Shown in pieces: positions 23,279 to 54,054 of a stretch of DNA of 64,000 bases. The notes under the pieces were generated by a model that did not search any database, was not told the origin of the DNA, and saw nothing but the letters and a program-made list of their open reading frames with translations. The position numbers were made by a program, and so were the translations under genes. Position 1 is the stretch's first letter. Each line of letters begins with the position of its first letter. The DNA comes from Halosimplex halophilum (GTDB lineage Archaea > Halobacteriota > Halobacteria > Halobacteriales > Haloarculaceae). Location: NCBI RefSeq assembly GCF_004698125.1, contig NZ_ML214298.1:310001-374000 (forward strand), given 5' to 3'.

Positions 23279-23538
23279 ACCCTGAACCTGTACCTTGGAC
23301 TGCCCAAGAAACTTCCCTTTGAATAACAGCGAAAAATCACGGCATGAAATCACATCGATATCCAAACAGCGGCCTAACTCGACACAACATACAATGAGAT
23401 AATAACCCCGGTGAAAGCCTGTAAAGCAATTAGCCACGCAACTCAGTGATAGCAGTCACACAGGCAGCATTCGCGGTGAACAATGGGACAAACACCTCTT
23501 CTACAGGTGACCGCTGATCAGTCACCCACGCAGCACCT

Positions 23539-36394: not shown

Positions 36395-38356
36395 TTACAG
36401 TCGCCAGAAGCCCTCGATAGACCGGTCAGTGTTTGGCCGACTGCCGAACAGGTAGTCCCGACAGAGGACCTGGTTGAAGTACGAACAGCTGATCTCGCTC
36501 ACGTGAAGGCAGGACAGACAGGCCCCATCGCGCTGTGAGCACACCGGGTCCATCATGCACTCGTTCCCGTGTGCTTTCGCCTGCCCGAGGAGATCGTCAA
36601 GCTGCTGTTCGACCATGGTAGTCATCCCACCGATGTTGAACTCCTCGCGGTTGTTGGTGTAGATTACCAGCGAGAGGGCACGCGGGAAGAGGAACTCGCT
36701 CAGGTTCGTCCGGTCGAATCCACTGATGGTGCTTGCCTGCTTCAGGAGGATGTGCGAGAGCGTGTGCAGCATCTCGAAGACGTACTTCGTCACCTGCCCC
36801 TCGACGGTGTCGTCGGTGGTGGTGTCGAACCGACCATACTGGTCGACGGGGTCGAGGTGATTCAGCAGGAACGCCCACTGTTCGCCCTCTGAGAGATCTT
36901 CGATAGCGGCCCGGGCCCGCTCGATATCGGCCTCTCCCGGATTCTCCGGGATCTCGGGAAGCGTGATACTCCCCCGAACTGCATCTTCGTTGCTGGTTCC
37001 CGGAATGTTGACGGCGAGCCAGAGCAACACCGCGGCCGGGTCGAGGTCGAACTGCGTCGCCTCGGTTTCCGAGGTATCGACGAAGATCGGAGTCCCGTCG
37101 CCACTGCTTGCGTTCTGTGAGAAAGCGTTCAGCCGGGCCTCATCCTCCTCACGCCCCCCTCGCGTGTAACCGTAGACGAACGTCTGGACCGGGAAGTCCT
37201 CGATGACGCGAACGTCTCTGAACCCGAGACGCTCGAGGTCATCGAAGTAGGTCGAAATCTTGTCAGCCTTCTGTGGGAACCCCTCGGCACGAGCGTCTTT
37301 TTCCAGTTCGTCGATCGTGTGGGCGGTGAGTTCCTCGAGGCTGAGCACATACTGGAGGAGTTCGTCGCCAGCGTCGGTCATCTCTGTAGCGTTCTCGCCA
37401 GCGTTCAGGTCGATCAGGTCTCTGATGACTTCACCGATAGTCTGGCTGTCGATTTCGCCATGCTCGCGGAGCCACTCTTCAGCCTCGGCCAGTGACTCGA
37501 CCTCGGGTTCGCTCTGGTAGATCTCGATCTTCCGGTCGTCATCGATTTCGGCCCCCTCGATCCCCTCATTCATATCGACGGCTTGGAGCGGGGAGTCGGT
37601 GAGTCCGAGATGTTTGGCGAGTGCTTTCCGGGACCCGTCCTCGCTCCCGCGGAGGTGTCCAATTCCGGAAGTGTGTAGATTTACCGTCGTCAGGTAATGC
37701 GGGTAGTACGTCGAGCCGGCACGGTGGACCGTGGTGTACATACTGTCGTCGTCTGGGTTGTCCTCATAGGCCGGCGGAACGTAGTCACAGCCACAGCTCT
37801 GGTAGTAGCTCACCCGGGTATTCCATCCACAGATCTTACAGCGCCATTTGAAGTTCTGTGCACGCTGGCTGTCCTGCGTATCGAGAACGATGTGCTGATC
37901 GCCGTGCTCAGGACACTTCTGTGTGTAGAGTCGCCTGATTTCACCGCAGCTGTGGACGCTGGCGAACTGATACTGCTTCAGATCGCCGTTGCAGCCCGAG
38001 CGCTGGCACTTCAGTGCCTGGTTTTTTCCGCTGAGGTCATCCGCGGAGTAGTACTCGTGGGCCTTCTGGCAGCTGCTGCAATAGAAGGTGGTTGGGAAGG
38101 GGCGGGCGCGCACCTCCTTGGGGGCAGCGAAGTCGTAATGGCTGGGTTTGTTTGACGTGAAGCCCTGTTCACCACCATCCCAGTTCTTCGCCCGAGCGAA
38201 CACGCGGTCGACGATGTATTCCCGGTCGACCTGGCCGCTTGCGTCAGTTGTTTCGAGGCGGTTCACCTGCCAGATGCCGCGCTTGTCGCTGTAATCGAAC
38301 GTGTTCCCGGGAAGGAACTGATACAGGATCTGCTGACGGCTACGTTCCATGCTCAT
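36395..38356 (-). CDS. drmB: DrmB, DUF1998 DISARM protein
   Basis: 653 residues from ATG 38356 (an ATG at 38350 is also possible). Several cysteine groups in the first 220 residues (FYCSSCQKAHEY, CQRSGC, CGEI, CKICGW, YYQSCGCDY) form zinc fingers. The C-terminal 130 residues are the DUF1998 domain: FEMLHTLSHILLKQAS, FPRALSLVIYTNN, EEFNIGGMTTMVEQ, and the cysteine set CMMDPVCS, CLSCLHV and CSYFNQVLCRDYL. DrmA and DrmB form the core DISARM complex that loads on DNA ends and blocks phage DNA. Its start is 6 bp after the drmA stop, so translation is coupled. Confidence 0.9.
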   Translation of the reverse strand: MSMERSRQQILYQFLPGNTFDYSDKRGIWQVNRLETTDASGQVDREYIVDRVFARAKNWDGGEQGFTSNKPSHYDFAAPKEVRARPFPTTFYCSSCQKAHEYYSADDLSGKNQALKCQRSGCNGDLKQYQFASVHSCGEIRRLYTQKCPEHGDQHIVLDTQDSQRAQNFKWRCKICGWNTRVSYYQSCGCDYVPPAYEDNPDDDSMYTTVHRAGSTYYPHYLTTVNLHTSGIGHLRGSEDGSRKALAKHLGLTDSPLQAVDMNEGIEGAEIDDDRKIEIYQSEPEVESLAEAEEWLREHGEIDSQTIGEVIRDLIDLNAGENATEMTDAGDELLQYVLSLEELTAHTIDELEKDARAEGFPQKADKISTYFDDLERLGFRDVRVIEDFPVQTFVYGYTRGGREEDEARLNAFSQNASSGDGTPIFVDTSETEATQFDLDPAAVLLWLAVNIPGTSNEDAVRGSITLPEIPENPGEADIERARAAIEDLSEGEQWAFLLNHLDPVDQYGRFDTTTDDTVEGQVTKYVFEMLHTLSHILLKQASTISGFDRTNLSEFLFPRALSLVIYTNNREEFNIGGMTTMVEQQLDDLLGQAKAHGNECMMDPVCSQRDGACLSCLHVSEISCSYFNQVLCRDYLFGSRPNTDRSIEGFWRL

Positions 38357-38362
38357 TGTTGA

Positions 38363-41300
38363 TCACCGGTTGTCCATCGTCTCGAAGATCTCTCGGTAAC
38401 GGTACTCAGATCGGATCGGGAGCTGCTCATCGACGTCCCGCAAGCTCTGCATCGGCGAACGCTTGATCCGCTCGCTTGTCCACTGATCGTCGTCGAGGCG
38501 GAGCTGCGAGAGTGCTTCTTTCGTGAGGGCTTCGATGTCGCCCCGGAACTCCTCGTGGTCGTCTGGATTGCCGAACATTCTCAGCATCTGCTGGCGTAGT
38601 TCTCCCTCGTCGACAGAGTCGGCGAACTCCTCGGCGTTGTCTCCGAAGTAGAGGTTCCCGGCGCCTTCGCGGTACATGTAGTGGTTCAGGAGAAGCCCCA
38701 TGAATAGCCCTGGATGGGTCTGTTTGACGCTGTTTTTCGCCCAGCGGTTGATCGGGACCGGCTCCACCAGTCGGTCGAGGAATGCATGGTACTTCTCGAA
38801 GAAGTGGTAGTGACTCAGGTCGCGTTCCCGGATGGGATGTGCTACGTTGAACACGAGGCCAGGGCGCGACCGACCTGCCCGGGAACTCGCCTGGATGTAT
38901 TCAGCGGTCCCGCGGGGCATTCCGAAGAACGTCATCATGTTGAACCGGTCGACGTCGACCCCATGTGCGATCATGTTCGTCGCCGTGATGGTGTTGAGCC
39001 GACTCGCCAGCAGCCAGGCGAGCGCCTCACGCGTGTCCTCGCTTGCTCGGGCGCGCTCGACATCAAACTGATCGCTGTCGACGACCTCGTTCTCCTCGTC
39101 GAGACTGTTCTCGAGTGTGCTTCGGAGTGAGAGAACGGAATCTGTTACCTCCTCTTCGAGCACCCCTCGATCAATCAGCCGGTTGAGGATCTGTTTGTCA
39201 GCCTCCTCGTCCCAGGGGTCCTCCACAATATCCAGCACTTCCATGATTGTCTCGAAGCCGGTCCCTCCGGTCATCCGCTCGGAGGCCAGCGGGGGTCGCC
39301 CATCTTCCTGGAGGTAGGCGTCGAGCTGTGAGACGATGGACTGGTCCAGCCGGTCGCCGTCTTTCTTCGACAGTAGATAGGTGATACTGGTACTGTAGTA
39401 GCTGAGCAGCGCCAGCACCTCGTCGATCGAGTCAGCTTCGAGCGGAGCCGTCGTGTCTGTTCCTTCGAGTGCAGCACCTGTTAGCACCTGAGTCGGCTCG
39501 TTCAGGGACTTGCGGAACAGGTTCTGGATCTCCCGATGGTAGTAGAACAGGAGATCGATGATGGAGTTGATGTGGGTCTTCCCGTGGGGGACCAGCCCGA
39601 TGTAGTAGCGCTGGGTCTCTGCGCGCTCCTGTGCGTAGAAGTTCTCGCGCAGATAGGGGCCCGGGGAGGGGAAGCGCTCAGCCGGCCGCATGAACAGGTT
39701 ATGCACCTGATCTTCGAATCCGGTGATCGTCGCCGTCGGAGCGATGACCTTCGTTTTCCCGGCCTCGACGAGCTCCTGCAACTCGGCAACTCCCGTCTCG
39801 TAGTGACCGTCGAAGCTCCCCATGCTCTCTTCGAGCAGGTGGAGTTCGTCTGGAACCATCAGCGATGGCGCAGGGTCGTAGGGCTCGACCGGACGCGCCA
39901 TATCCGAGAAATCGTCTTTATCGATCGGGCAGCCGTATTTCTCGGTGCATTCACCGAGACTGGCGAACCCATGGATCGGACACTCGAGGTCCATCTCGCC
40001 CGTGATGAGGTGGGCGAACTTGCGCTGGTAGCCGACAGCGGTGATCTTGTCGATCGTCCCGGCAATGATCGTCGGCGCGTACCGGTAGAGCTCGTTGTCG
40101 ACGACGTGGACCGGGAGTTCCTCCTCCGCGTAGGTCTCGCTGGAGTCAAGCGAGCGCGACTGCCACGGGCATTCGAAGCTACTGCCTGTACAGCAGTGCG
40201 TTAGCCGATGGTCGTCCTCGGTGATCCGGACCTCAATATCCGCACCGCAGGCCGGGCAGTTGGGAACGACCTTTGCCTCACGGCGGAGACTCTCTCCAGA
40301 TGGGCCCTGGTACCGCTGGTGGTTGTTATTGTCATACCCGGTGAGGGCGTTCGGCGTGTTTCCCTTGCCGACGAGGTAGCCCATGGAAAATGGACGGGAC
40401 GGATGGGTCCCGATATCCGACTGTTCGCGGCGGACGAGGTCGGCATACATCACCGTCTCTGTCATCCGCTGGAATTGCTGGAGCGAGAGGAGCCGAAGCG
40501 GGAACTTTGTCCAGGCCGTAACCCCGAAGTTCTTCCCGCGAAGCCGGTCGAAGAACATGCTCCAGACTGCGACACCGAGGAACGCCTCGGTCTTGCCACC
40601 GCCTGTCGGGAACCAGAGCACATCGACGACATCGAGGGGAGAATCAGCGCCCTCGGCTCGATCTTCAGTCGATCCATCGCGCCAGCTGACCTCCGACCAC
40701 TCCTCGTACTCTCGGCTCGCAACGTCGGGGACTTCCATGACGATGAACACGAGCTGGAAAAGGCGCCAGCCTGGGAACTCGTGCATCCTATCCATCGCCT
40801 CGTTCATCAACTCGAACGCGCGTCCGACTGTCTCGGGGTGCTGACGGAGACATTCGATCCCGCGCTCGAAGCGCTTGATCTCGCGCTCGAACGCGTCGCG
40901 ATCGTCGTTAAAGTCGGCGAGATCGCCAGTTTTGGGGTCGTCATCCCAGTCTTCGCGCTCTCGATACTGTTCGAGCGCGGCATCGTACTCCTCGCGGAGG
41001 TACTGCCGCATCTCGGCAGCAATGTCGTCGAGGGTATCGAGGCCACCGTCTTCTAGATCCGCAAGCACCTCGAACGTCGCGTCGACATTTCGATCTGCGG
41101 ATTCGTAGACGAGCTGGCGGTACTGTGGGATGAACTGCGTCTCCAGCCGATTGGCCGTCGGTGCTGCAGCAGGTGCACGGCGGCCCGGCGGGACACCGTT
41201 TTCATCCACCTGCTGATCGTTGCGCTCGGGTGCAGTCACCGTACAGTTGCGCCCATGGCCCCAGAGGTCACGGTTATACCGGAAGTCCTCGGGAAGTGGG

Positions 41301-42190
41301 TCGAAAGTGAAGGGGACGAACTCGAGATCGCCTGTCGTCTCCAGTTCGAGTCCCACCTCGAACAGAGTTGGGTCGCGAATTGTGTAGATAGCGTCGTCAC
41401 GCGACTGTATTGCCTCGTTCGCGACTTCAAGATCAACGATGGTACTGTCGTCATCGTTTTCCTGGTCAGCCATCACTTCGACGGTCAGGGTGGCGTGCCA
41501 GTCGGGGAGTACCGGATCCCCCTCGGCAGCGCGTTCAGCCAGGTAACCACGGAAGCTCTCTTTGTCCTCCAGGGCAGCCGTCGGGACTTTGTCGTCACCC
41601 TCCGTCTCGGCGTAGAGGTCGTAGTTCTCCTGGGCGTGCTCGCGCGCGTCAGCGAAGGCTGTCTGGAACGCATCGCGGGCACGTTCTTGGACGACATCCG
41701 GGGTGGTCCGACTCGGTGTCTTGAGGACCTGCGCCGGGATCTCGATCGGGGGGATGTCGAGCTCGATCCGCTCGAAGACCGGGAGCAGGGTATCGCCCTC
41801 GTCATCCTCGTCGCGGTCACCCAGTGCGACGAAGGAATCCCGGTTCACCATCTCGTCGTACGTGGGGTTGACGCGCACCCATACGCTCGCGTTGACCGAG
41901 AGGACCAGCGCGTCGTCGTCGTCGGTGCCTCCCCGGACGCGGACGGTGGCACCGAGGCCGGTCGGCTCCATCTTCGACTGCAGGTCGTCATCCGGGTCGT
42001 CAAGTTGCTCTTCGCTTTCAGGCGCCAGCGCGCCCGCGAAGAACCGCTCGCTAGGGAAGTCCCGCTGGACCCGCCTGTCAATGTCGCCACGGGCCTGTTT
42101 CAGCACCGTCTCGCGGAGGTGCCGGGCGATGCGTTCGTCGTCGGCCGGGGTTTCAGTCCCGGTGGTATTTCCTGTGGACATCCTGCTCAC
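38363..42190 (-). CDS. drmA: DrmA, DISARM SF2 helicase
   Basis: 1,275 residues from GTG 42190, which overlaps the stop of the preceding gene by four bases (GTGA); ATG at 42181 is the alternative. The helicase core shows VDVLWFPTGGGKTEAFLGV near residue 530, a DEAH-like box LMVPDELHLLEES near 780, PTATITGF, and motif VI QASSRAGRSRPGLVF near 1107. Zinc-like pairs (CPACGADIEV, CPIDKDD) interrupt the lobes as in other DrmA proteins. The long N-terminal part (MIT-like helices and beta stretches) is typical of DrmA. With DrmB it forms the DNA-binding core that is opened when unmodified foreign DNA is met. Confidence 0.9.
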   Translation of the reverse strand: MSRMSTGNTTGTETPADDERIARHLRETVLKQARGDIDRRVQRDFPSERFFAGALAPESEEQLDDPDDDLQSKMEPTGLGATVRVRGGTDDDDALVLSVNASVWVRVNPTYDEMVNRDSFVALGDRDEDDEGDTLLPVFERIELDIPPIEIPAQVLKTPSRTTPDVVQERARDAFQTAFADAREHAQENYDLYAETEGDDKVPTAALEDKESFRGYLAERAAEGDPVLPDWHATLTVEVMADQENDDDSTIVDLEVANEAIQSRDDAIYTIRDPTLFEVGLELETTGDLEFVPFTFDPLPEDFRYNRDLWGHGRNCTVTAPERNDQQVDENGVPPGRRAPAAAPTANRLETQFIPQYRQLVYESADRNVDATFEVLADLEDGGLDTLDDIAAEMRQYLREEYDAALEQYREREDWDDDPKTGDLADFNDDRDAFEREIKRFERGIECLRQHPETVGRAFELMNEAMDRMHEFPGWRLFQLVFIVMEVPDVASREYEEWSEVSWRDGSTEDRAEGADSPLDVVDVLWFPTGGGKTEAFLGVAVWSMFFDRLRGKNFGVTAWTKFPLRLLSLQQFQRMTETVMYADLVRREQSDIGTHPSRPFSMGYLVGKGNTPNALTGYDNNNHQRYQGPSGESLRREAKVVPNCPACGADIEVRITEDDHRLTHCCTGSSFECPWQSRSLDSSETYAEEELPVHVVDNELYRYAPTIIAGTIDKITAVGYQRKFAHLITGEMDLECPIHGFASLGECTEKYGCPIDKDDFSDMARPVEPYDPAPSLMVPDELHLLEESMGSFDGHYETGVAELQELVEAGKTKVIAPTATITGFEDQVHNLFMRPAERFPSPGPYLRENFYAQERAETQRYYIGLVPHGKTHINSIIDLLFYYHREIQNLFRKSLNEPTQVLTGAALEGTDTTAPLEADSIDEVLALLSYYSTSITYLLSKKDGDRLDQSIVSQLDAYLQEDGRPPLASERMTGGTGFETIMEVLDIVEDPWDEEADKQILNRLIDRGVLEEEVTDSVLSLRSTLENSLDEENEVVDSDQFDVERARASEDTREALAWLLASRLNTITATNMIAHGVDVDRFNMMTFFGMPRGTAEYIQASSRAGRSRPGLVFNVAHPIRERDLSHYHFFEKYHAFLDRLVEPVPINRWAKNSVKQTHPGLFMGLLLNHYMYREGAGNLYFGDNAEEFADSVDEGELRQQMLRMFGNPDDHEEFRGDIEALTKEALSQLRLDDDQWTSERIKRSPMQSLRDVDEQLPIRSEYRYREIFETMDNR

Positions 42191-44913
42191 TCTGTAATTC
42201 GGTCGAGCTGATCGTCCGGGATGATGGTCGGCATGATCGTGGGGGCGAGGGCGTTGATGCTGCGAGCTACAACCTCGGCTGTGATAAGGCCCGTGTCCTC
42301 GAAACTCGTGCCGTACTCATCGACGTAGTCGCGGTACATGGTGATGGTGTAGAACACCATCGCGAGTTCGTAGTGCTGTTCGACGAACTCTTTCCAGTTG
42401 TCCTTGACGTTGCGCTCGACGATGAACGACCGGAGCGCAGCGGCGTCCATGTTGATCGTAAGCGAGAGGCCACTGATGGTTCCGTCCTGACTCGGATCGA
42501 GGTGGATCAGCGTGTGTTCGTCGAAGTGCCTCGCATCGGCTACATTGAACTTCTCAGGGTCGACCGGGTCACTGTCATCGTCGGTTCGCCAGTTCTCCTC
42601 GTGAACGTACCCGATGTCGGGCATCTCGAAGCCCCAGTCGTCGGTCCCGCCGTCGTCGCCTGTGTCTCCATCACGGTCGCTCGCGCTGGCTTCGTCGTCA
42701 CCAGACGCATCGGCGGTATCAGTGTCGCCGTCGCTCTCGTTCCCGGTTGAAGAATGGCTGTCTGTCCCCTCCACGTATTCGAGCTGGCAGCGTGCGGTGA
42801 GCGTGCCGGTATCGACATCCACGCCACCATCGGTTGCGAGGTCAGTCTCTGCGTGTCCCGGATAGGCGTCGGCTGGATCGTCGATCTCCGGACAATCGCG
42901 TGGGTCCGGACGGGTCAGATCGACCGAGAGCGTTGTTTCGTCCCCCGGGTCGGCGTCGTCAGCAGGGTCGATGGTCAGCGTGAGTAGACCGTTCTGGAGC
43001 TCGACCGCGCGTAGCTGGTCCGGGCTAGAGACTTCCAGCGAGCCGGAGAGAACGTCCCGGGCGAGGTAGTCGCTCTGGGCATCGGTTGCAAACCGAATCG
43101 TCGTCGCCCCGCTGACGGGTATTTCGACGGGCAGAGGCTCGTCATCGTCCCAGAGGACGTGCTCCTCACTCCCGGGGTTGTACTCTTCGATCGGTGTGAG
43201 AAACGTCGGGAGCTTCGGTGCGTGGGGCCTGTCGCTTCCGCTCTCGTCACCAGCCGAGGTATCCGTGTGGTCGGAGAGATCGCCGTCGGCGGACTCTGGT
43301 GGGGACTCGCTCCCATTGCCACTCGGGCGGATGCGCGGTGCGCGGATCCGCTCACCAGTGGCCATGAAGTTACCGACCTCCGGGTTCCGCTCGATGAACT
43401 CGGCGAACGTTTCGGTGTCGGTCGCCGGTTCGGCGTTTCCACGCTGCGCTCGTCGGCGTTCCTCTTCCGCGGTAAGCAGGTCGCTTCCCTCGAGAGCGTC
43501 CTCCAGCGCACTGAGGAACTTGTTGGCCTGCGGTGAATCCTCCAGTGTATCTCGGGACGGGCTGAACATGCTCACCATCCCGAGGTTCGCGAGGTCGTCG
43601 AACTCCGCGATGACAACGGTGTCAGAGGCGATCTTCGAGTACCCCAGCGACTTCAGGAAGTACTCTCCCTTGCTTGCATGGGTCTGGCCGTTGATGGTAA
43701 GCATCACGGCGTGGTCCTTCTGGACCCCCGTGCGTCCATGAGCGTCCTTGTGTGCCGAGGTACCGGAGACAAATTTTTGCTTCTCACTGGCCTCCTCGAG
43801 TTCGTCGTCGTCCTTGAACAGCAACACGGTGATGTCGCGCTCGCCCAACGTCTCCGAGCCCGTGTCGACGGTGAGGTGCTCTTTGTCCACGAGGAGATGC
43901 TCGTTGCCATCCTCCAGTTCTTGGCGGAACCCCCGCGTGTAGCTCTGCGGGAACTTCGAGTTGTACCGGAGATCGGTCAGCTGGATGGGGTACGGCGAGT
44001 CGACGACCGATCGCTCAAGCTTGTGGCGGAATCCCTCGTCGCCACTGATCATCGTTCGCGAGGCGTTCGTCTGGTAGTCGTACACCTTGACGAAAGCGCC
44101 GTGGCTCTGGGGATCTGGCGTCGTCGTGTTCTTCTCGAAGTCGTACTTCTCAGGGTAGCTTTCACGGAACTTCTCCGTGAGAGCCCCTCCGAACGTCCCG
44201 TCGAAGATGGGGAACTCGCCGTTCACCGTAAGGTATTCCACCTGACTCTTGTGCGGCTTGTCGTGAATCAGCGTCCACGACCACTCGCCCGGCTCGTGGA
44301 CGGAGGCACTGGCGATGAACTTGAACGCCCGCTCGTTGTACTCCTCCTCGACGTTCCCAGCGAACTTCATCACGGCTGTGCTCCCCATGCCGTACTGTCC
44401 CTGCAGGAAGTCGTACTCCTGCTTCTTTAGCCCGGGTGCGTGTAGCCCGACGAAGTCGTCGAATTCCGGGCGAGACTTCCCCTTTCCGTTGTCACGGACC
44501 GTGAGGTTGAGCAGGTTCCCCTCTTGGGGCGCATAGCCGTCGGCGATGATCTCGAGTTCTGCATCGTCGAGGTCGACCCAGCCCGACTGTGCGGCCTTCT
44601 TCATCGAGGAAGCAGTCGGATCGTCACCGACCGCGCAAGCCTCCTCGTAGAAGCGAAGGGTGAGCGAGTCCTCCGCATTCAGTGGCAGCTCCGAGAACGC
44701 CGCCATCGGAGAACTCGCCTGCGTGTAGACATCGGAGTAGTTGTTCTCGTCCTCACCAAGGGGCACCCAGTTCATTTCGTGTGCCCCCAGCTTGAGGAGA
44801 GTCTCTTCCAGCTCAGCGAGAATCTCCCAGACCTCGTCTGGGCTATCTGCGGTGAGTAGCCGTTCAGCGTACCTCTTGGAAGTGGCCCCAGACAGGCGTG
44901 CAGGCTGGCTCAT
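42187..44913 (-). CDS. MORC-like GHKL ATPase at the head of the DISARM operon
   Basis: 908 residues from ATG 44913 (MSQPARLSG); the open frame continues upstream through a hairpin but that part is basic and unlike haloarchaeal protein. The ATP-binding Bergerat fold is clear: LTVRDNGKGKSRPEFDDF gives the DxGxG box near residue 140, and GQYGMGSTAVMKFAG the glycine-rich lid near 172. A middle domain carries the S5-like part (AVMLTINGQTHASKGEYFL). Then come about 200 residues of acidic linker and a C-terminal helical domain. GHKL ATPases with SF2 helicases and DUF1998 partners were described as prokaryotic MORC relatives in restriction systems. Its stop overlaps the drmA start, so it belongs to the system. 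It is not among the standard DISARM genes. Confidence 0.85.
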   Translation of the reverse strand: MSQPARLSGATSKRYAERLLTADSPDEVWEILAELEETLLKLGAHEMNWVPLGEDENNYSDVYTQASSPMAAFSELPLNAEDSLTLRFYEEACAVGDDPTASSMKKAAQSGWVDLDDAELEIIADGYAPQEGNLLNLTVRDNGKGKSRPEFDDFVGLHAPGLKKQEYDFLQGQYGMGSTAVMKFAGNVEEEYNERAFKFIASASVHEPGEWSWTLIHDKPHKSQVEYLTVNGEFPIFDGTFGGALTEKFRESYPEKYDFEKNTTTPDPQSHGAFVKVYDYQTNASRTMISGDEGFRHKLERSVVDSPYPIQLTDLRYNSKFPQSYTRGFRQELEDGNEHLLVDKEHLTVDTGSETLGERDITVLLFKDDDELEEASEKQKFVSGTSAHKDAHGRTGVQKDHAVMLTINGQTHASKGEYFLKSLGYSKIASDTVVIAEFDDLANLGMVSMFSPSRDTLEDSPQANKFLSALEDALEGSDLLTAEEERRRAQRGNAEPATDTETFAEFIERNPEVGNFMATGERIRAPRIRPSGNGSESPPESADGDLSDHTDTSAGDESGSDRPHAPKLPTFLTPIEEYNPGSEEHVLWDDDEPLPVEIPVSGATTIRFATDAQSDYLARDVLSGSLEVSSPDQLRAVELQNGLLTLTIDPADDADPGDETTLSVDLTRPDPRDCPEIDDPADAYPGHAETDLATDGGVDVDTGTLTARCQLEYVEGTDSHSSTGNESDGDTDTADASGDDEASASDRDGDTGDDGGTDDWGFEMPDIGYVHEENWRTDDDSDPVDPEKFNVADARHFDEHTLIHLDPSQDGTISGLSLTINMDAAALRSFIVERNVKDNWKEFVEQHYELAMVFYTITMYRDYVDEYGTSFEDTGLITAEVVARSINALAPTIMPTIIPDDQLDRITE

Positions 44914-45022
44914 GCGACCCCACGCTCCATGGGCCGGAGGCCGGAACTGTCGGTCAATCGGCTGTGCGACGGTCTTGCGGCGCTGTGGTGGCCGTTGGGA
45001 ATGGTGGCCATACCTGTCAACA

Positions 45023-45060
45023 CAGATGCCCGTCCTCATAAAACTTCGGACGGGCATCTG
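45023..45060 (-). promoter_or_regulatory. Perfect 13-bp inverted repeat around a TATA-like box
   Basis: CAGATGCCCGTCC at 45023-45035 and GGACGGGCATCTG at 45048-45060 are exact inverted copies. On the minus strand the 12-nt loop reads GAAGTTTTATGA and holds TTTTAT, a TATA-like box for the DISARM operon whose first gene starts 110 nt further on. A repressor binding both arms would cover the promoter. Confidence 0.6.
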
Positions 45061-45088
45061 TAGTAGCATAACGCGCTCGCGGGCGCCC

Positions 45089-45114
45089 GTTGCGCGTGAG
45101 CGCTCGCGCGCAAC
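45089..45114. repeat. 8-bp inverted repeat in GC-rich leader
   Basis: GTTGCGCG at 45089-45096 and CGCGCAAC at 45107-45114 with a 10-nt loop containing GAGCGCT. It lies between the 13-bp operator-like repeat and the glycosylase gene. TGTAGTAGCAT (45059-45069) and GCGCGTGAGCGC just before and within it repeat those near 7782-7814. Confidence 0.5.
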
Positions 45115-45194
45115 GCGCGCGCTCGCGTGCAGCAGCTACGGAACACTACGGGACGTTTCGGGCCCCAAAACTGCTAACCAGCCGCGATAACCGA

Positions 45195-45983
45195 CTATAC
45201 CGAGGAATACGTACATCCGCTATTGAGTGGACACTCCTCACAGATAGGGTGCGCGTGTGTACAGCGAAGCGCGCCAAGATCGAGGAGTGCGAGATTGAAT
45301 GCTCGTGCCATGGCTCCGTCAGCAGGAACAAGGGAGTCGAGGAATCGGTAGACGACCTCGCTCTTGTGGGGTTGATCTGGTAGTGGATATTCGAACACCC
45401 GCCCCGTAATGCGTGCAGTATTCGCATCAACGAGTGCGAGCGGTTCCTGGAACGCAAAGAGCATGCATGCCCGGGCGGTGTAGGGCCCAACTCGCCACGG
45501 TTGCTGTAGTGCCTCCAAGTCAGTCGGGACTGCTCCATCATGATTGACAACGCAAAGTTCCGCAGCTTCCTGAATCGAACGGACACGGTGATTGACGAAT
45601 CCAAGGGATCTGATACACTCTCGAAGCTCTGTTTCGCTCTTTTCGAGGACTGCTCCTGGTCGCGAAAAAGTTGAGAAAAACTCCTCATAGATCTCCTCCA
45701 CCGCATCGGCACGGGTTCGCTGTAGCAGTATCTCGGTCGCGTAAATCCGCCAGGGATCCGTCGCATACCGCCATGGATACTCTCGTCCATAGGTCTCGAG
45801 CCAGCTGAGGAGTTGAGGTAATGTCGTCAGAAACTCATCGACCTTCTCGCCGGCCGAGTCAACGCCGACCTCCTGAAGCACGTCAAGTGCGGCGTGTTCG
45901 TCTACGTGGTCCCGAAGTTCTTCGGAAGTAACCTGAGTCCGTCCGAATGGGAACAGGGGATCGACCATCGGGTTCGAAATCAC
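45195..45983 (-). CDS. mig: Mig-type G/T mismatch (thymine) DNA glycosylase
   Basis: 262 residues from ATG 45983 (a second ATG 15 bases downstream is possible). An HhH-GPD glycosylase with an iron-sulphur cluster: YPWRYATDPWRIYATEILLQ, helix-hairpin-helix WRVGPYTARACMLF, and CTHAHPICEECPLNSGC with the Cx6Cx2Cx5C cluster pattern. Tyr168 stands where endonuclease III has its catalytic lysine, and Asp186 in LVDANTARI is 18 residues further on, exactly the Tyr/Asp spacing of Mig from Methanothermobacter. Mig removes thymine from G/T pairs left by deamination of 5-methylcytosine and is encoded beside a C5 methylase there too. MutY is the main alternative. Confidence 0.8.
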   Translation of the reverse strand: MISNPMVDPLFPFGRTQVTSEELRDHVDEHAALDVLQEVGVDSAGEKVDEFLTTLPQLLSWLETYGREYPWRYATDPWRIYATEILLQRTRADAVEEIYEEFFSTFSRPGAVLEKSETELRECIRSLGFVNHRVRSIQEAAELCVVNHDGAVPTDLEALQQPWRVGPYTARACMLFAFQEPLALVDANTARITGRVFEYPLPDQPHKSEVVYRFLDSLVPADGAMARAFNLALLDLGALRCTHAHPICEECPLNSGCTYSSV

Positions 45984-46143
45984 ATGGCTATCCCCTTCAG
46001 TTATCTGCTCAAATGAAGGATAATATGTGTGTTAATCCGATCCTACTATCAAGAGAGGTGGTTGAGTGGCTGTACGGAGTATCCGGAAGAAAGAGTGATC
46101 CCTCACCCTGGAGTTTATCCCTGGTGGCGGTTTAACAGGTGGT

Positions 46144-48387
46144 ATGCCTGACCCGGTCACGTCTTCCGATCTACCACTGGGCCTAATTCGTTCAGCGTCG
46201 AATACGGAGCGGAATATCCATCGAAAGTTGCTCTTCGAGAATGTTGATTTTCTCATTGATACACTGACTGCTGCCCATTCGCGGAGACAACGAATAACGC
46301 CGGTCGGATGTCCAGGTGCAACGCCGGAACAGATCGCACGAAAACGGAGTACGCAGGAAGCAAACTGCCGTTACGCACTGATCAACCGCGAATATACTGT
46401 CGACAGTGACTCTCCATGCCCATGCAATGATCCCCTCTGTGGGAGTGACGACCCGCTTGATGGGGTAGCTGCAGCTGTACTCAGTGGGGCCGTCGAATAT
46501 CCAGCGAGACGATTCTTCGAGCGATATCCTCGAGAAATTGTCCAGGCGCTGCGAGATCAACACGGGAGCTGGGAAGAGATCGCCTCGATGGATCAGGAGC
46601 AACTCGCTGATTCTCTTAAGGAGATGACCCGTGGCAGGGGCAAAGGACGGACGCGTGCCGCTCGGCTCCAAGATCTTCTTGAAGTTGTTGGGGAAACACA
46701 CTACACAGATGGGGTTACGCTTCGAGATTTCTCCCGAGTGAAGTATCAGACCTATGTAGATTTCCTTGCTACTCTACCAGGAATTCAGGAGGGTGACGGC
46801 TGGTGGTTGCTCCAGACGGCTTTCGACAAGCCGGTATGGCCCGCAGACCCCAAGATCGACGAGTTGCTCTGTTCACTCGGCCTCATCAAACCAGCCGATC
46901 TTCACGATGATGCTGGTCGCCGGCATGACCTTGAGAATGAACTGATAGACCGGCTTATTGCCCCCCTGTTCCGAGCACTTGCAACACATGCCGTCGCTGC
47001 CAAGACAGATGTCTGCGGTGAAGATTGTGAGATCAAAAAATTCCTACTAACCCATCGACTTCGACAACAGCAGGGAGAACCGACAGGACCGACAGCAGTG
47101 GACGTGTTTGCAGGTGCTGGTGGACTCTCATGCGGGCTAGAAGAGGCAGGATATAACGTCCAGTGGGCAATCGATATCGACTCTGACGCGGTAGCTACCT
47201 ACCGATTGAATCATCCAGGAATCCCCCACGAAAATGTCGTCTGTGAGGATGTCCGTGAAATCGAGCTTGCTAAACGGATTCAGGAAGCCGCCGGTGAACC
47301 CGACTTGCTCGTCGGGGGACCACCATGTCAGTCCCTTTCGAAGGCAGGGTATCGATCACGCCGATCGAACGACGATGAATATAGCATCCTCGACGATGAC
47401 CGGACGAACCTCTATACCCAGTATGTGAACGCCGTTGATGAGCTTCGCCCGAAAGCCATTGTAATGGAGAACGTTGAGGGCATGGTCAACGAGGTAGGAG
47501 ATACTGATATACGCGTAATTGACTGGGTGCTCGAAGATCTTGAATTACTCAGTGAAACGGGGCCCGGGTACGATGTTGAGTATCGGTTACAGGACATGAC
47601 AGAACTCGGTATCCCACAAAAACGGGAACGAGTCCTTCTGATCGGAATCCGAGAGGATCTTGTAGAGGGTTCATCGACTGCTGAAGAGGTGCTTACCGAC
47701 CTTCCAGTAGCAGACAATTCGCGGACCATCCAACAGGGACTGTCTGGGCTCCTTCGCCTTCGACGTGGAGCAGGAGGGCGAGTACTGACGAAGTCAGTTA
47801 GGGGGCAAAAGAGCGACTACGTCTACGAACACGATCTCGATTCAGACACCGATCTCTGCTTCAACCACAAAGCACGGGAACACCCGATGGAGAAAGATCG
47901 GATCCTGTTTGACGAGGCGCTGAGCCCTGGTGATACTGGCTGGGATGTCAAATACGATTCCGATGGAGAATATGCAGAATATGTCGAATACGATGTCGGA
48001 ACCGCTGATAACCAGCGATTTGGTGACAAGTACCGGATGCTTGAATGGTCAGAGCCCTCGCCGACGATTGTGGCCCATCTGGCCAAAGACGCGAACGGCT
48101 ACGTGCTACCCGATTATTATGAGCACGCCCGACCCGATCCTGCCCGCGCCGACCCGGAGCGAAACCGGGGAATTACCCCGCGGGAGGCTGCCAGGTTACA
48201 GTCGTTCCCTGATGACTACATCTTCCTCGGAACGTTCACGAGCTGGTTTAGACAGATCGGCAACGCGGTCCCTCCCGTTGCAGGAAAACAGATCGGGAAG
48301 ACGCTTAACGCTGTAGTTGATGCTGTAGAATCACCGGTGATGGAAGCGGATTCCGCCGGTGCCGATGAAGCCGTTTCCGATGACTGA
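46144..48387 (+). CDS. DNA (cytosine-5) methyltransferase fused to N-terminal HhH-GPD-like domain
   Basis: 747 residues from ATG 46144, divergent from the glycosylase gene with 160 bp between. Residues 320-740 are a complete C5 methylase: VDVFAGAGGLSCGLEEAG, GGPPCQSLSKAGY with the catalytic Cys near 395, ENVEG, RERVLLIG and RQIGNAVPP. Residues about 115-300 look like an HhH-GPD glycosylase: FFERYPREIVQALRDQHG, GKGRTRAARLQDLLEVVG, FLATLPGIQEGDGWWLL, and PVWPADPKIDELL with Asp235 at the site of the catalytic aspartate. The lysine or tyrosine expected before it is absent, and only one cysteine pair (CGEDC) recalls the iron-sulphur cluster. It may read or flip target bases rather than cut. A short Cys group (CPCNDPLC) lies near 98. 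Confidence 0.85.
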   Translation: MPDPVTSSDLPLGLIRSASNTERNIHRKLLFENVDFLIDTLTAAHSRRQRITPVGCPGATPEQIARKRSTQEANCRYALINREYTVDSDSPCPCNDPLCGSDDPLDGVAAAVLSGAVEYPARRFFERYPREIVQALRDQHGSWEEIASMDQEQLADSLKEMTRGRGKGRTRAARLQDLLEVVGETHYTDGVTLRDFSRVKYQTYVDFLATLPGIQEGDGWWLLQTAFDKPVWPADPKIDELLCSLGLIKPADLHDDAGRRHDLENELIDRLIAPLFRALATHAVAAKTDVCGEDCEIKKFLLTHRLRQQQGEPTGPTAVDVFAGAGGLSCGLEEAGYNVQWAIDIDSDAVATYRLNHPGIPHENVVCEDVREIELAKRIQEAAGEPDLLVGGPPCQSLSKAGYRSRRSNDDEYSILDDDRTNLYTQYVNAVDELRPKAIVMENVEGMVNEVGDTDIRVIDWVLEDLELLSETGPGYDVEYRLQDMTELGIPQKRERVLLIGIREDLVEGSSTAEEVLTDLPVADNSRTIQQGLSGLLRLRRGAGGRVLTKSVRGQKSDYVYEHDLDSDTDLCFNHKAREHPMEKDRILFDEALSPGDTGWDVKYDSDGEYAEYVEYDVGTADNQRFGDKYRMLEWSEPSPTIVAHLAKDANGYVLPDYYEHARPDPARADPERNRGITPREAARLQSFPDDYIFLGTFTSWFRQIGNAVPPVAGKQIGKTLNAVVDAVESPVMEADSAGADEAVSDD

Positions 48388-48518: not shown

Positions 48519-51431
48519 TCACAGAAGCAGCGCCCGTTCAGCACATTCCCGCAGTTCGGCCTCCGACAGCGGCTCGATCTCGACCCGTTCGTCGTCGGCC
48601 GTGTAGTAGATGATCGGCCGGATCTCCCGGCGGGGATATTCCGCCGAGAGCACGTGGTGATAGACACTCAACTGTGTCCGGTACTCCGCGTGGGCGACCC
48701 GCTGGCGGTCGGTCTTGTAGTCGACGATGTCGACTCGCTCGGGCGTCACGTGCAGCAGGTCGACGATCCCGGACAGGACGATCCGCGGGTCGCCGTCGAG
48801 TGGACAGATGACGGTCTGTTCGGGCGACAGCGTCCCCGACAGCTCATCGATGAACGCTGCGATCCCAGCCTGTTCGTCCTCACCGGGACCGGACGGGTCC
48901 ACGTCCTCGCCCAGCGCGTACGCCTCGGCGAAGTCGTGGACGGCGGTCCCGAACTCGGTGCCTTCGCCCTCGGTAATCTCCTCGTAGACGCTGTCGTCCA
49001 TGATGTCGTGGACGCCCGCCTGCACCGGCCCCTCCCTGCTCGGTGGTGAAACAGACAGCCCAGTCTCCGTCGGCGGATCCCGTTCGACTGGCGTCACCTC
49101 GGGGTCGACCGTCGTCGGCTCCCGGTCCAGTTCGGTGAAGAAGTTGCTCGGTTCGTCGCCGGCGGTACACAGGAGGTGGCGCTTGGCGCGGGTCATCGCG
49201 ACGTAGAGCAGTCGTCGTTCCTCGTCGTAGCTGGACGGGAGCGCACCCGAGAGCACGTCGTACTGCCAGCTGTCGAAGACGTGCGGCCGATCAAGCGACG
49301 TATCGAGCACCTGCGTCTGTCGCAGCCCGACGGTATCGTCGAACCGGATCCGGCTCGCGTCGGGGTGCCCGTAGTGGGGGAACGCCCGTTCGTTGAGGTT
49401 CGCGAGGACGACGATCGGATACTCCAGCCCCTTCGCGCTGTGGATCGTCTGGAGCGTCACCGCGTCCTCGCCGGGGTTGGCGTCGATCTCCGGCGTCGTA
49501 CCGGCGTCGAGGTTCGCCTCGAGGAACTCGATGGCTTCGCCGCGCGTGTAGACGGTCGTCCCGTGCAGGTTCGTCAGCTCCTCGACGAGGCCGTCGGCGT
49601 AGGGACCGTCGAAGCCGTAGCGGTCGAACACGCGACGCACCAGGCCACCGAGCGTCTCGGTCGCGCGAAGCTCCTCCCGGAAGGTGACCATCGCCTCGGG
49701 GTAGGCCCCGCTGTCGAGCAGCTCCTCGGCGTGGGCGAGTGTGTAGCCCGCTTCTTCGAGGACGACCGCCCAGCCGCGGTCGTCGTCGGATTCGACGATC
49801 CGCAGCCAGGCCAGCAGGAGCTTCGCCTGGTCGGTGTCGAACAGTTCGATCCCGCCCTCGTAGCCGACCGGCACGTCGTGGTCCTCGGCGGCCTCGATCA
49901 GGTCGCGTGCGAACGCTCGCTTGCGCGTGAACACTGCGATATCGCCGTAGTCGGGCGTGTCCAGACGTGCCCGTTCGGCTTCGGCCTTGGCCTCCTCCGA
50001 TGCATCGTCCTCGACCGTCGGCTCGTCGTGTTTCTCGACGGCGTAGTCGGGGTTGTCGACGACGTGTTGCACCCGGTCGAGGACCAGTTCCAGCTCCCGC
50101 TCGTGGGTGACCAGCTCGATCCGGGAGTTGTCGACGTGGTTGGTCGCGTCGAGTTCCGTCATCTCGGCTTCGATCGCCTCGACATCGAGGTCCTCGCCGT
50201 CGGTCGCGGGGATCGTGAGACTGTCCTCGGCGAACTCGAGGACCGACGCCGTCGAGCGGTAGTTCTCCGTGAGCGAGATCCGCTCGATGTCCCCGACCTC
50301 GTAGGGGACGCGCTCGCGGTCGCGATTCAGCGCCGCCCGGTAGCGATCGATCCGCTCCCCGAACCGCTGGATGTTCTCGACGGTCGTGTACTGGAACCCG
50401 TAGATGCTCTGTTTCCAGTCGCCGACGACGCAGATGTTGTCGGTCCCCGACAGCAGCAACGCCAGCTTGAACTGCAGTTCGTTGGTGTCCTGGAACTCGT
50501 CGATCATCACGTACTCGTGGCGGACCTCCGCCCGGGCCCGGTCGTCCTCGCAGAGCAGGACGAAGGTGAGCACGAGCAACAGGCTCTGGGTGAGGTAGTT
50601 GCGCCCGAGTGCGAACGCCAGGTACTCGACGTACAGGTCGTGGACGAACGACCGGAGTGCCGAGCGGTCCTCGTCGAACGCCGTCGCGACCCACTGTTCG
50701 TCCACCTGCGGGTAGTCGACGATGTCGTCGTAGGCCGGCGCGTCCGGTCCGTATGGCCCCATCTCCGAGTCGAGGCGGCTGGCGATCCCCTTCCGGGCGT
50801 CCGACTGGTTGTAGCCGTTCGCCCCCTCGATGGGTTCGTTGGCCTCGCGAAACGCCTCCAGGAACGCGTCGCGGTCGCCATTGAGCAGGGCCCCTGACCC
50901 GCGGAACCAGCCGTCGGTCGTCGGGATCACCCCTTTCGCGGCCAGCTCCGCGATCAGCGACCGCAGCGACGCCGGGTCAGACAGCGCCGCGAACACGTCT
51001 TCGTGTTCGGGATGGCGGTCCTCGAACTGCGAGACGAACGTCCGGAAGCGCGTTCGCTCCTGGACCTCGTCTTCGACGAGATCCAGCGACTGGGGGATCC
51101 GCTCGTCGAGCCCGAGATGCGTCGGCGCCTCGTGGCCGTACCGGCGCAGAATCTGGTAGGCGTAGGCGTGGAACGTGCTGATGGGGGCGTCCTGCAGTTG
51201 CGTCAGGTCGTAGTCGGTCCGGGCGACGATCCGGTCTCGCATCTCCGCGGCGGCGTTGCGCGTGAAGGTGACCAGCAGGATGTCGTCGGGGTCGGCGGCG
51301 GTCGAGTCGAGGATGTTCGCGTAGCGGCGGGTGACGGCGAACGTCTTGCCCGTGCCGGCGCCGGCGTCGACGAGGTGTGGCCCGTCGAGACTCTCGATCA
51401 GGTCGCGCTGGCGGGGGTTGGGCTCAAGCAT
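48519..51431 (-). CDS. addA: AddA/RecB-like UvrD helicase-nuclease
   Basis: 970 residues from ATG 51431. UvrD/Rep-type SF1A motor: AGAGTGKTFAVTRRY near residue 22, VMIDEFQDTNELQ, VGDWKQSIYGFQ, LTENYRST, TIHSAKGLEYP and LLYVAMTRAKRH. The last 130 residues form a RecB-type PD-(D/E)XK nuclease (GTAVHDFAEAY, LSGIVDLLHV and DIVDYKTDRQ). This is the AddA arrangement. Its start overlaps the end of the upstream addB-like gene by eight bases, so the two are translated together and should form a helicase-nuclease that trims DNA ends for recombination. Archaea more often use HerA-NurA with Mre11-Rad50 for this. Confidence 0.87.
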   Translation of the reverse strand: MLEPNPRQRDLIESLDGPHLVDAGAGTGKTFAVTRRYANILDSTAADPDDILLVTFTRNAAAEMRDRIVARTDYDLTQLQDAPISTFHAYAYQILRRYGHEAPTHLGLDERIPQSLDLVEDEVQERTRFRTFVSQFEDRHPEHEDVFAALSDPASLRSLIAELAAKGVIPTTDGWFRGSGALLNGDRDAFLEAFREANEPIEGANGYNQSDARKGIASRLDSEMGPYGPDAPAYDDIVDYPQVDEQWVATAFDEDRSALRSFVHDLYVEYLAFALGRNYLTQSLLLVLTFVLLCEDDRARAEVRHEYVMIDEFQDTNELQFKLALLLSGTDNICVVGDWKQSIYGFQYTTVENIQRFGERIDRYRAALNRDRERVPYEVGDIERISLTENYRSTASVLEFAEDSLTIPATDGEDLDVEAIEAEMTELDATNHVDNSRIELVTHERELELVLDRVQHVVDNPDYAVEKHDEPTVEDDASEEAKAEAERARLDTPDYGDIAVFTRKRAFARDLIEAAEDHDVPVGYEGGIELFDTDQAKLLLAWLRIVESDDDRGWAVVLEEAGYTLAHAEELLDSGAYPEAMVTFREELRATETLGGLVRRVFDRYGFDGPYADGLVEELTNLHGTTVYTRGEAIEFLEANLDAGTTPEIDANPGEDAVTLQTIHSAKGLEYPIVVLANLNERAFPHYGHPDASRIRFDDTVGLRQTQVLDTSLDRPHVFDSWQYDVLSGALPSSYDEERRLLYVAMTRAKRHLLCTAGDEPSNFFTELDREPTTVDPEVTPVERDPPTETGLSVSPPSREGPVQAGVHDIMDDSVYEEITEGEGTEFGTAVHDFAEAYALGEDVDPSGPGEDEQAGIAAFIDELSGTLSPEQTVICPLDGDPRIVLSGIVDLLHVTPERVDIVDYKTDRQRVAHAEYRTQLSVYHHVLSAEYPRREIRPIIYYTADDERVEIEPLSEAELRECAERALLL

Positions 51432-54054
51432 CGGTCGTCCCCCCTGTCAGGATGAGATCCCGGTGGTCCACCCGGTCCCAGTTCGGCCCGTCGTCGTCAA
51501 ATGCGACGGGGAAGCGGTCGTCGTGATACCGCTCGAGTTCCGCGATCCGGTCGTCGACGAACGACTCGAAGGCATCCAGGTCGTCTTCGAGGAAGTAGCC
51601 CGTCGGTTCGGTCAGGTCGCCGAAGATCTTGTCGACCCCGTTGGCGACGTACTTGTAAGAGCCGACCTCCGATTCGGCGAGCGCCGCGAACGACTCTCTG
51701 ATCGCCGCCCGGCGCTCGGGGTCGTCGCCCTCCCGCGGGAGCTCGTGGGCTTCGAAGAACGTCCGGTACTGCTCGTAGCCGAGCGTGTCGAGGACCTTGC
51801 AACGGTCGTTCGAGTCGGCGTAGTCGGTCACCTGGTCGAACATCGCACGGCTGGCGACGAACTCGGCGAACGTGCTCGGGACGTAGGTGATGGGCGTCAC
51901 CAGCTCGTCCAGGTCGGGGTCGGCGCCTTTCACCATCTCGTCGACGGCGCCGAGCACGTAGACGAAGCGCAACTCGAGACGTTCTCCCGGCCGTTCCCGG
52001 CGGTGCTGTGCGAGATACGCCTTCGCCTGGAAGTCGGGCCGGTCGTGGACGGGGTCCAGCGCCGCCTTCCGCTGGACGGTGCTCGCGTCGCGAACGCTCC
52101 CGGACTTGTAGTCGACGAGTGTCCCCTCGTCCTGCAGGAAGTCGACGACCCCGTGGAGGCCGAGGTCCGTCGCGGTGAACCACCGCTCGCAGTGGTGCGC
52201 GTCCAGCGCCACACCGAGGGTCTCGGCGAGGTCGTTGTCGTGGGCGGGGTCGTCGTAGGTGGTGAACGCGCCGTCGGCGGGCGGCGACGGGCAGTCGTCC
52301 AGGTACGCGACGAGTACGTCCAGTCCAACGTCCAGGCGCGTCCTGAGCGCCCGCAGGCGCGGCTCGGTGACGAAGGGGGCCAGCCGGTCGCACATCGCGT
52401 CGAGGACGCGCTCGCGTTCCTCGCGGACGACTGCGGGGGCGTTGACGTAGACTTCGGCGGCGTCGTGGAGTACCTGCCCGCGCTCCATCGCCAGGTTGGT
52501 CGGCGACGCCAGCAGTTCGTCGAAGTAGTACTCCCGCGGCGCGTTGACGAGTTGCTTCAGCGTCGACTGGCTCACGGTCTCGACCGGGTCGGGCTCCGGT
52601 TCGGCCGCGTCGGTGGGCGCCTCGAAACAGCGCCGGTCCCGGCCGCCGTCGTGCGCCTGGCCCGTGTGGTCGGTCACGTCCGGGAGGTCGTCAAACCCGT
52701 CGACGGTCCGGTCGTCGAACAGTTCCCGGAGATAGGGACAGGGCGTGACTTCGTCGCCGGCCATCGTCGCCTGGGCGAGCATAAATCGCTGGTCGCCGTT
52801 CTGCAGGAGTCGCTGGAAGCGCCGGAAGTCGCGGTCGACGAAGGCTTCGGCGTCGACCCAGGGGTACTCGGGCGGCGTTCGGGCCCACCCCTCGCCGAGG
52901 CCGAGATAGAAGACGATCTCGCGGTCGACGGTCGCGGTCGCACCGGCGTCAACCAGCAACACGCCCTCGCTCTCCCGGTCGACGGGCACCTCGAACGACT
53001 GGAGATAGTAGACGAGTTCGTTCACGGCGGGCTCGGTCACGCGGGCGTCCAGCCGGCCGAGCGACCGGAGTTCCGTCCGCAACTGGTCGCGTCGCGTCCC
53101 GACCAGGTCCTCGAACGCGTCAAGTGTGTCGGCGAACGTCCCCTCCTGTACGGCACGCCGGAACCGTTCGATCCGGCTCCATACCTCGTCGTCGCCGAGG
53201 TCGACAGTCGCCACTCGACGGTCGTCGTACTCCCGCGACACGTCGAGTCCGGCCGCGACGAGAAGCGGGCGGACCTCGCCAACGGTCAAGCCGTCGCCGG
53301 CGAAACTCGTCTGGAGCAGCCGGAGAAAGAGCCGGATCTCGTCGTCGTCGACGAAGCCCGGACCGCCCTGGTAGGGGACGTTCGCGGCTTCGAGCTTCGC
53401 CTCCAGGAGGGAACTGTAGATCGTTCCCTCGTCGAGGACGACCCCGACGTGGTCGGCGGTCGCCGGGTCGATGTGGTCACAGACCGCCTCGACGACCGCG
53501 GTCGCGGACGGATAAAGGTGAGTCCGGGGGAGCGGCGTTGTTCCCGCCGCGAAGGGATCGACCGAGCGGTAGGCCGCGTCGTCGTCGGGGAGGAGTCGTC
53601 GGTCGAGCGGGCTCAGCGACCCCTCGTCGATGACGGCGATCTCCCGGCCCGGGTCGAGCGTTGTCTCGGCGAGCGTGCGGTGGCTGTTCGGCGTCGATTC
53701 GAGCAGATCCACGGCAGCCCGGATCGGGGGCGTATCGAAGCTGGGGTAGTTGCAGATCCCGTCCCGTTCGCCCGTCCGGTCCCAGCAGTCGAGGGTCAAC
53801 TCCAGTGCGCGCGTCGCCGTCTTCCAGGACAGGTCGGTCCCGCTGACGAACGCGGCGAACAAGTCGCGCCGGTCGTCGGGTGCGAACTCGCCGGTCGCCT
53901 GGCTGCGGGGCGTGGCGGCCATCCGACCGATCCGGGGTTCGGTCGCCCGACGGTCCAGCGCCAGCGTCAGCGGGGCGTCGGCGGAGATCGTCACGTCGGC
54001 GTCGGCGACCTCCGTGGCGAGGTCGTCGATCGACTTCGCAGTCGCGAGTGACAC
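51424..54054 (-). CDS. addB: AddB-like nuclease subunit
   Basis: 876 residues from ATG 54054. The N-terminal half has a degenerate helicase-like body (VGVVLDEGTIYSSLLEAKLE, SLGRLDARVTEP) with no Walker A box. The C-terminal part holds a PD-(D/E)XK nuclease: RGQVLHDAAEVYV, LHGVVDFLQDEGT and LVDYKSGS near residue 650, then FQAKAYLAQ. The cysteines that hold the iron-sulphur cluster of bacterial AddB are not seen in the usual places. Gene order addB-addA with overlap equals the bacterial operon. The DNA is the most GC-rich in the window and long antisense frames result from that. Confidence 0.8.
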   Translation of the reverse strand: MSLATAKSIDDLATEVADADVTISADAPLTLALDRRATEPRIGRMAATPRSQATGEFAPDDRRDLFAAFVSGTDLSWKTATRALELTLDCWDRTGERDGICNYPSFDTPPIRAAVDLLESTPNSHRTLAETTLDPGREIAVIDEGSLSPLDRRLLPDDDAAYRSVDPFAAGTTPLPRTHLYPSATAVVEAVCDHIDPATADHVGVVLDEGTIYSSLLEAKLEAANVPYQGGPGFVDDDEIRLFLRLLQTSFAGDGLTVGEVRPLLVAAGLDVSREYDDRRVATVDLGDDEVWSRIERFRRAVQEGTFADTLDAFEDLVGTRRDQLRTELRSLGRLDARVTEPAVNELVYYLQSFEVPVDRESEGVLLVDAGATATVDREIVFYLGLGEGWARTPPEYPWVDAEAFVDRDFRRFQRLLQNGDQRFMLAQATMAGDEVTPCPYLRELFDDRTVDGFDDLPDVTDHTGQAHDGGRDRRCFEAPTDAAEPEPDPVETVSQSTLKQLVNAPREYYFDELLASPTNLAMERGQVLHDAAEVYVNAPAVVREERERVLDAMCDRLAPFVTEPRLRALRTRLDVGLDVLVAYLDDCPSPPADGAFTTYDDPAHDNDLAETLGVALDAHHCERWFTATDLGLHGVVDFLQDEGTLVDYKSGSVRDASTVQRKAALDPVHDRPDFQAKAYLAQHRRERPGERLELRFVYVLGAVDEMVKGADPDLDELVTPITYVPSTFAEFVASRAMFDQVTDYADSNDRCKVLDTLGYEQYRTFFEAHELPREGDDPERRAAIRESFAALAESEVGSYKYVANGVDKIFGDLTEPTGYFLEDDLDAFESFVDDRIAELERYHDDRFPVAFDDDGPNWDRVDHRDLILTGGTTDA

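Follow-up and report, generated by a model that had tools for sequence, protein, structure and literature searches.

Introduction

The closest described relatives of the locus analysed here belong to kinds that are already known, namely the pairs of a Mig glycosylase with a methylase and the C5-cytosine methylases of DISARM. The gene of Mig.Mth, the enzyme of PDB entry 1kea, presumably adjoins a C5 methylase gene. Among the other HhH-GPD enzymes, the 5-methylcytosine (5mC) glycosylases DEMETER and ROS1 depend on a Lys/Asp pair and an Fe-S cluster, and the monofunctional glycosylases of the MutY/AlkA type require the Asp and not the Lys. In DISARM, self and invader are discriminated partly via cytosine methylation, and the ATPase activity of DrmAB is reduced by 5mC DNA (PMC9142583). 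5mC can therefore act as a self-mark.

The window, that is, the whole analysed stretch of 64,000 nucleotides to which all positions below refer, covers positions 310,001-374,000 of a contig (NZ_ML214298.1) of the haloarchaeon Halosimplex halophilum. A preliminary description had reported in it a Mig-type glycosylase next to a C5 methylase with an HhH-GPD-like front domain. The Mig/methylase pair stands, and the DISARM setting, with drmA, drmB and drmC found at 21 of the 22 loci that carry the methylase, had been missed. In the open-access literature that we searched, no DISARM core gene was described as encoding a C5 methylase with a degenerate HhH-GPD domain of its own, and no paper brought DISARM and HhH-GPD together.

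A C5 methylase with an endonuclease III-like front domain

The fusion gene (46144-48387, plus strand) encodes 747 residues, and in 22 haloarchaea it is a single open reading frame of 742-823 aa. The C5-cytosine methyltransferase domain occupies residues 318-721 (47095-48306, plus strand; Pfam E 3e-57), and its full set of catalytic motifs, including FAGAGG, PCQ, ENV, QKRERV and GNAVPP, is intact. From these motifs we infer a working C5-cytosine DNA methyltransferase. The AlphaFold model of the full-length protein reached a pTM of 0.72, with the target-recognition region modelled poorly.

In front of the methylase lies a domain of residues ~103-285 (46450-46998, plus strand). Searches of single sequences with Pfam (PF00730) gave no match in the first ~310-315 residues of the fusion, and the relationship emerged from profiles. 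An 8-row profile of the N-domain, compared with all PDB sequences, returned endonuclease III (EndoIII; 8a5c) at the top with E 1e-6, so that the motif likeness seen at the outset did not fail in a profile search, and nearly all of the further matches were HhH-GPD enzymes. By hhalign, the N-domain matched haloarchaeal EndoIII at 98% (E 2e-13, 168 columns), while five column-shuffled controls did not exceed 0.3% and EndoIII against Mig, as a positive control, reached 98%. In NCBIfam, the DR2438 glycosylase was matched directly, though weakly (E 0.0014). Structure prediction, which the preliminary description had proposed, yielded a model of the isolated N-domain with a moderate pLDDT of 74 and a pTM of 0.75, the pLDDT being higher in a 22-row run. 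With this model, the 50 Foldseek matches listed were all HhH-GPD enzymes, among them 1orn (6e-5) and 1kea (8e-4), with TM-scores of 0.4-0.6. Together, these comparisons of sequence profiles and predicted structure uphold the claim that an HhH-GPD-like domain heads the methylase, and indicate that the fold is genuine and that its ancestry is in the EndoIII branch, not in Mig. The possibility that the domain is a copy of the neighbouring Mig was ruled out, as its hhalign score against Mig was 0.2%, versus 98% against EndoIII.

The two ends of the protein carry further conserved features. A motif of four cysteines, C56, C75, C92 and C94 (46309-46425, plus strand), is kept in 22, 22, 21 and 22 of the 22 copies, respectively, and forms a possible Zn site. 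The C-terminal tail -Ser-Asp-Asp (48376-48384, plus strand) ends in -DD in every copy and in -[ST]DD in nearly all. These ends (loci L093-L113 and L006) come after a variable acidic linker and resemble a short linear docking motif. Unlike the fusion copies, the DrmMII of the window has neither ending at its C-terminus.

The active site is degenerate while the domain is maintained

The active site of the fused domain is degenerate. In this protein, Gly217 stands where the catalytic Lys is expected and Asp235 is retained. Across the 22 copies, Lys is absent from the Lys position, where D, G, S, N, A, Q, R, E, H, T or P stands instead. Eighteen copies retain the Asp; in the other four, G, S, N or A takes its place, through four separate changes on the tree. 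The earlier statement that the aspartate is kept and the lysine lost therefore applies to this protein, but its first half does not extend to the whole family. The site of the EndoIII DNA-plug Gln, located in a poorly aligned loop, holds many residues, and Gln in just one of the 22 copies. The [4Fe-4S] quartet of EndoIII is incomplete, with only two cysteines partly kept (C291 in 18/22 and C295 in 20/22), and the HhH hairpin retains only its Pro-Gly part.

Other parts of the domain are maintained. The C56/C75/C92/C94 quartet, W143, W220/W221 and the K229-P230-x-W232-P233 segment are invariant or nearly so, 30 of the ~310 N-domain positions are invariant across all 22 copies, and the dN/dS values of 0.09-0.21 reveal purifying selection. 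A domain that is maintained while its glycosylase machinery is not points to a repurposed fold. Compared with endonuclease III, of the haloarchaeal and the D. radiodurans EndoIII-1/DR2438 type, the fused domain shares the fold and the sequence profile; it differs in that the Lys, the plug Gln and the full Fe-S quartet are not conserved, in its extra N-terminal Cys4 and in its occurrence only in fusion with a methylase. DEMETER and ROS1 share the HhH-GPD fold as well (7yho, TMq 0.50), but they are not methylases.

Distribution and origin of the fusion

The N-domain gave strong matches in 8 of the 145 genomes of relatives and in 21 of 391 haloarchaeal genomes. Searching for the fusion elsewhere, as had been suggested, we recovered the 22 haloarchaeal copies; a phylum sample of 393 genomes contained none beyond the haloarchaea, nor did viral contigs or phage records. 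A virus-borne origin was rejected, as the viral contigs and phage records contained no relative. Three plasmid records carry the fusion, which public annotation calls simply a DNA cytosine methyltransferase.

The two halves of the protein appear to share one history. Among the 145 genomes, the methylase clade occurs in precisely the 8 that have the N-domain, and scans of the 145 and 391 genomes found no unfused form of either half, the N-domain always lying in open reading frames of 742-823 aa. Judged by sequence, the fusion is thus obligate among the sampled genomes. The N-domain and methylase trees have 14 of 19 splits in common, as would be expected if the fusion arose in one old event.

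The fusion in a DISARM locus

The minus strand of the window contains a complete DISARM-type set, comprising a DrmMII-type C5 methylase (23823-25199; PADLOC MTase_II 3e-85, DrmMII 1.6e-82), a DrmD/BrxHII-like helicase (25247-28189; BrxHII 8.8e-171, DrmD 1.8e-112), the N6-adenine methylase DrmMI (31111-35271; E 1.9e-112), the PLD nuclease DrmC (35435-36364; E 5.5e-14), DrmB (36395-38356; E 1.7e-51) and the DrmA helicase (38363-42190; E 5.5e-162). Next to drmA lies a gene for a GHKL/HATPase-like protein (42187-45069, minus strand), with a weak Pfam match (E 0.014) and homologues beside drmA in other loci; this ATPase is absent from PADLOC.

This linkage recurs among the relatives: besides the 21 of 22 fusion loci with drmA/B/C nearby, two more plasmid loci concur. 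In the haloarchaeal class sample of 391 genomes, all 16 genomes with a member of the close drmA clade (at least 58% identity) carry the fusion, an association with a Fisher p of 2e-24, uncorrected for relatedness, and four more fusions accompany a distant drmA type. The sole fusion without DrmA or DrmB, in G191, has a DrmMII-type methylase and a HATPase as neighbours. From this gene linkage, the fusion is a core gene of a haloarchaeal DISARM subtype. The DrmMII of the window, second and unfused, shares with the fusions a C5-MTase domain (~27-44% to their methylase part) and the linkage to DISARM, but lacks an HhH-GPD domain. Both genes occur together in several loci, including that of the window, and there the fusion is not a replacement of DrmMII.

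Several other features of these loci may be recorded. No DISARM helicase was found with the G191 cluster of HATPase, DrmMII-type methylase and fusion. Within the DISARM locus of the window, an open reading frame (28889-29932, plus strand) combines HNH with an AspBHI-N domain, which belongs to a family of modified-cytosine-dependent restriction enzymes; it is found whole or in part in about nine fusion loci, and is odd next to two C5 methylases. GmrSD-type restriction genes, which are modification-dependent, occur on both flanks of the island (21446-23437, minus strand; 56993-58834, plus strand). Directly downstream of the fusion lies a UvrD/RecB-like helicase-nuclease paired with an AddB-like PD-(D/E)XK protein (48519-54054, minus strand). 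At the other fusion loci we found no such pair, only a weak UvrD match in G145. Between the HATPase and Mig genes, there is a perfect 14-bp inverted repeat, ACAGATGCCCGTCC (45022-45061), unique in the genome. A GC-rich stretch beside it appears foldable (z -5.4 for 45015-45150), and Rfam provided no convincing match for this region.

The neighbouring Mig glycosylase

The Mig gene (45195-45983, minus strand; 262 aa) and the fusion gene are divergently oriented, with 160 bp between them. Its product contains an HhH-GPD domain (Pfam E 7e-17), and among PDB entries it most resembles the thermostable thymine-DNA glycosylase 1kea (E 1.9e-35), with MutY (2.5e-27) and endonuclease III well behind. Tyr168, at the EndoIII Lys position, and Asp186 are aligned with the Tyr/Asp active-site pair of 1kea, and the [4Fe-4S] cysteines 241, 248, 251 and 257 are all present with the spacing C-x6-C-x2-C-x5-C. 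The coordinates, the 1kea match and these residues bear out the original identification of a Mig-type enzyme diverging from a C5 methylase. The protein is most likely an intact mismatch thymine glycosylase, presumably acting on T:G. It shares with Mig.Mth the fold, the Tyr and Asp residues, the cysteine spacing and a C5 methylase neighbour, and is distinguished by its DISARM setting and its dispensability.

Mig is intact at 11 of the 22 fusion loci, broken at two and absent from nine, which rules it out as an obligate partner of the fusion. The broken copies are an interrupted gene in Natrinema pallidum and a remnant in N. gari. In the former (L014:13595-16237), an insertion of ~1.9 kb splits the Mig gene and the adjoining fusion is intact. 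Outside the fusion loci, close Mig homologues diverge from a DrmMII-type methylase in G032, G044, G045 and G135. More distant Mig-like sequences, part of which are broken or contain stops, also occur close to C5 methylases in several further DISARM loci. Our gene-neighbourhood data thus indicate that Mig tracks C5 methylases rather than the fusion, which is consistent with a role in guarding against 5mC deamination. This recurrent pairing supports the earlier proposal that Mig beside a methylase counters such deamination.

Discussion

We consider it probable, with moderate confidence, that the pair supplies the C5 methylation of an antiviral DISARM locus in haloarchaea, with the dead EndoIII-like front end of the methylase reading DNA and Mig guarding the self-mark. 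An EndoIII-like glycosylase would have been captured as the front end of a methylase and would then have lost its glycosylase chemistry. By binding or reading DNA, the degenerate domain may place the methylase on its substrate or couple it to DISARM. The fusion would write 5mC on the host DNA, and the DISARM helicase would treat this mark as self. Where 5mC deaminates to give T:G, Mig, judging from the known properties of its family, would restore C:G and thereby spare both the genome and the self-mark.

The preliminary description had left the fused domain as either a base-reading module or a 5mC/T eraser. The best reading of our data is a repurposed, non-catalytic module with a putative DNA-reading role, and the complete absence of Lys, the four losses of Asp, and the state of the plug Gln and of the Fe-S quartet make an active eraser unlikely. 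An improbable variant is that the domain works through Asp alone as a monofunctional glycosylase on T:G, 5mC or viral modified bases, so that one protein would be both writer and eraser, or would cut foreign bases. Since Asp235 has counterparts in 17 other copies and monofunctional HhH glycosylases such as those of the MutY/AlkA type function without the Lys, such an activity is compatible with the sequence. Three of the four Asp-less copies share their locus with an intact Mig, which would suit redundancy between the two; however, the relation between Mig loss and Asp retention is not significant (Fisher p 0.59), and an offset of the one by the other was rejected. The Asp was lost four times while the adjacent W and P residues are invariant, which also argues against catalysis, as do the unconserved plug Gln and the incomplete Fe-S quartet. 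Similarly improbable is a self-proofreading DISARM methylase: one chain would write 5mC, and a rewired EndoIII-like site in it, relying on Asp235 or on the near-invariant Asp239, would excise bases (5mC, T:G or viral modified cytosines).

Less improbable than these, although we regard it as unlikely, is that the domain has lost its contact with DNA and serves as a docking module for a protein such as DrmAB, the HATPase or Mig. The strong linkage to drmA, the new invariant residues and the Cys quartet that EndoIII lacks, and the conserved -[ST]DD tail would all fit this idea, but the fusion is also found alongside a distant drmA type and, in one case, outside DISARM. Finally, the loss of the catalytic residues could be expected if the protein were an ordinary orphan or restriction-modification methylase dragging along a decaying, functionless glycosylase remnant. 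This reading is very improbable, as it is already contradicted by the dN/dS values of about 0.1-0.2, by the 30 invariant N-domain positions and by our finding no copy without the domain.

If the preferred reading, a DNA-reading front end with Mig as guardian of the self-mark, is true, this DISARM subtype would illustrate the way in which a defence system preserves its self-label, by means of a captured repair domain and a guarding mismatch glycosylase. It would also provide a concrete, testable case in which a base-excision fold has become a DNA reader.
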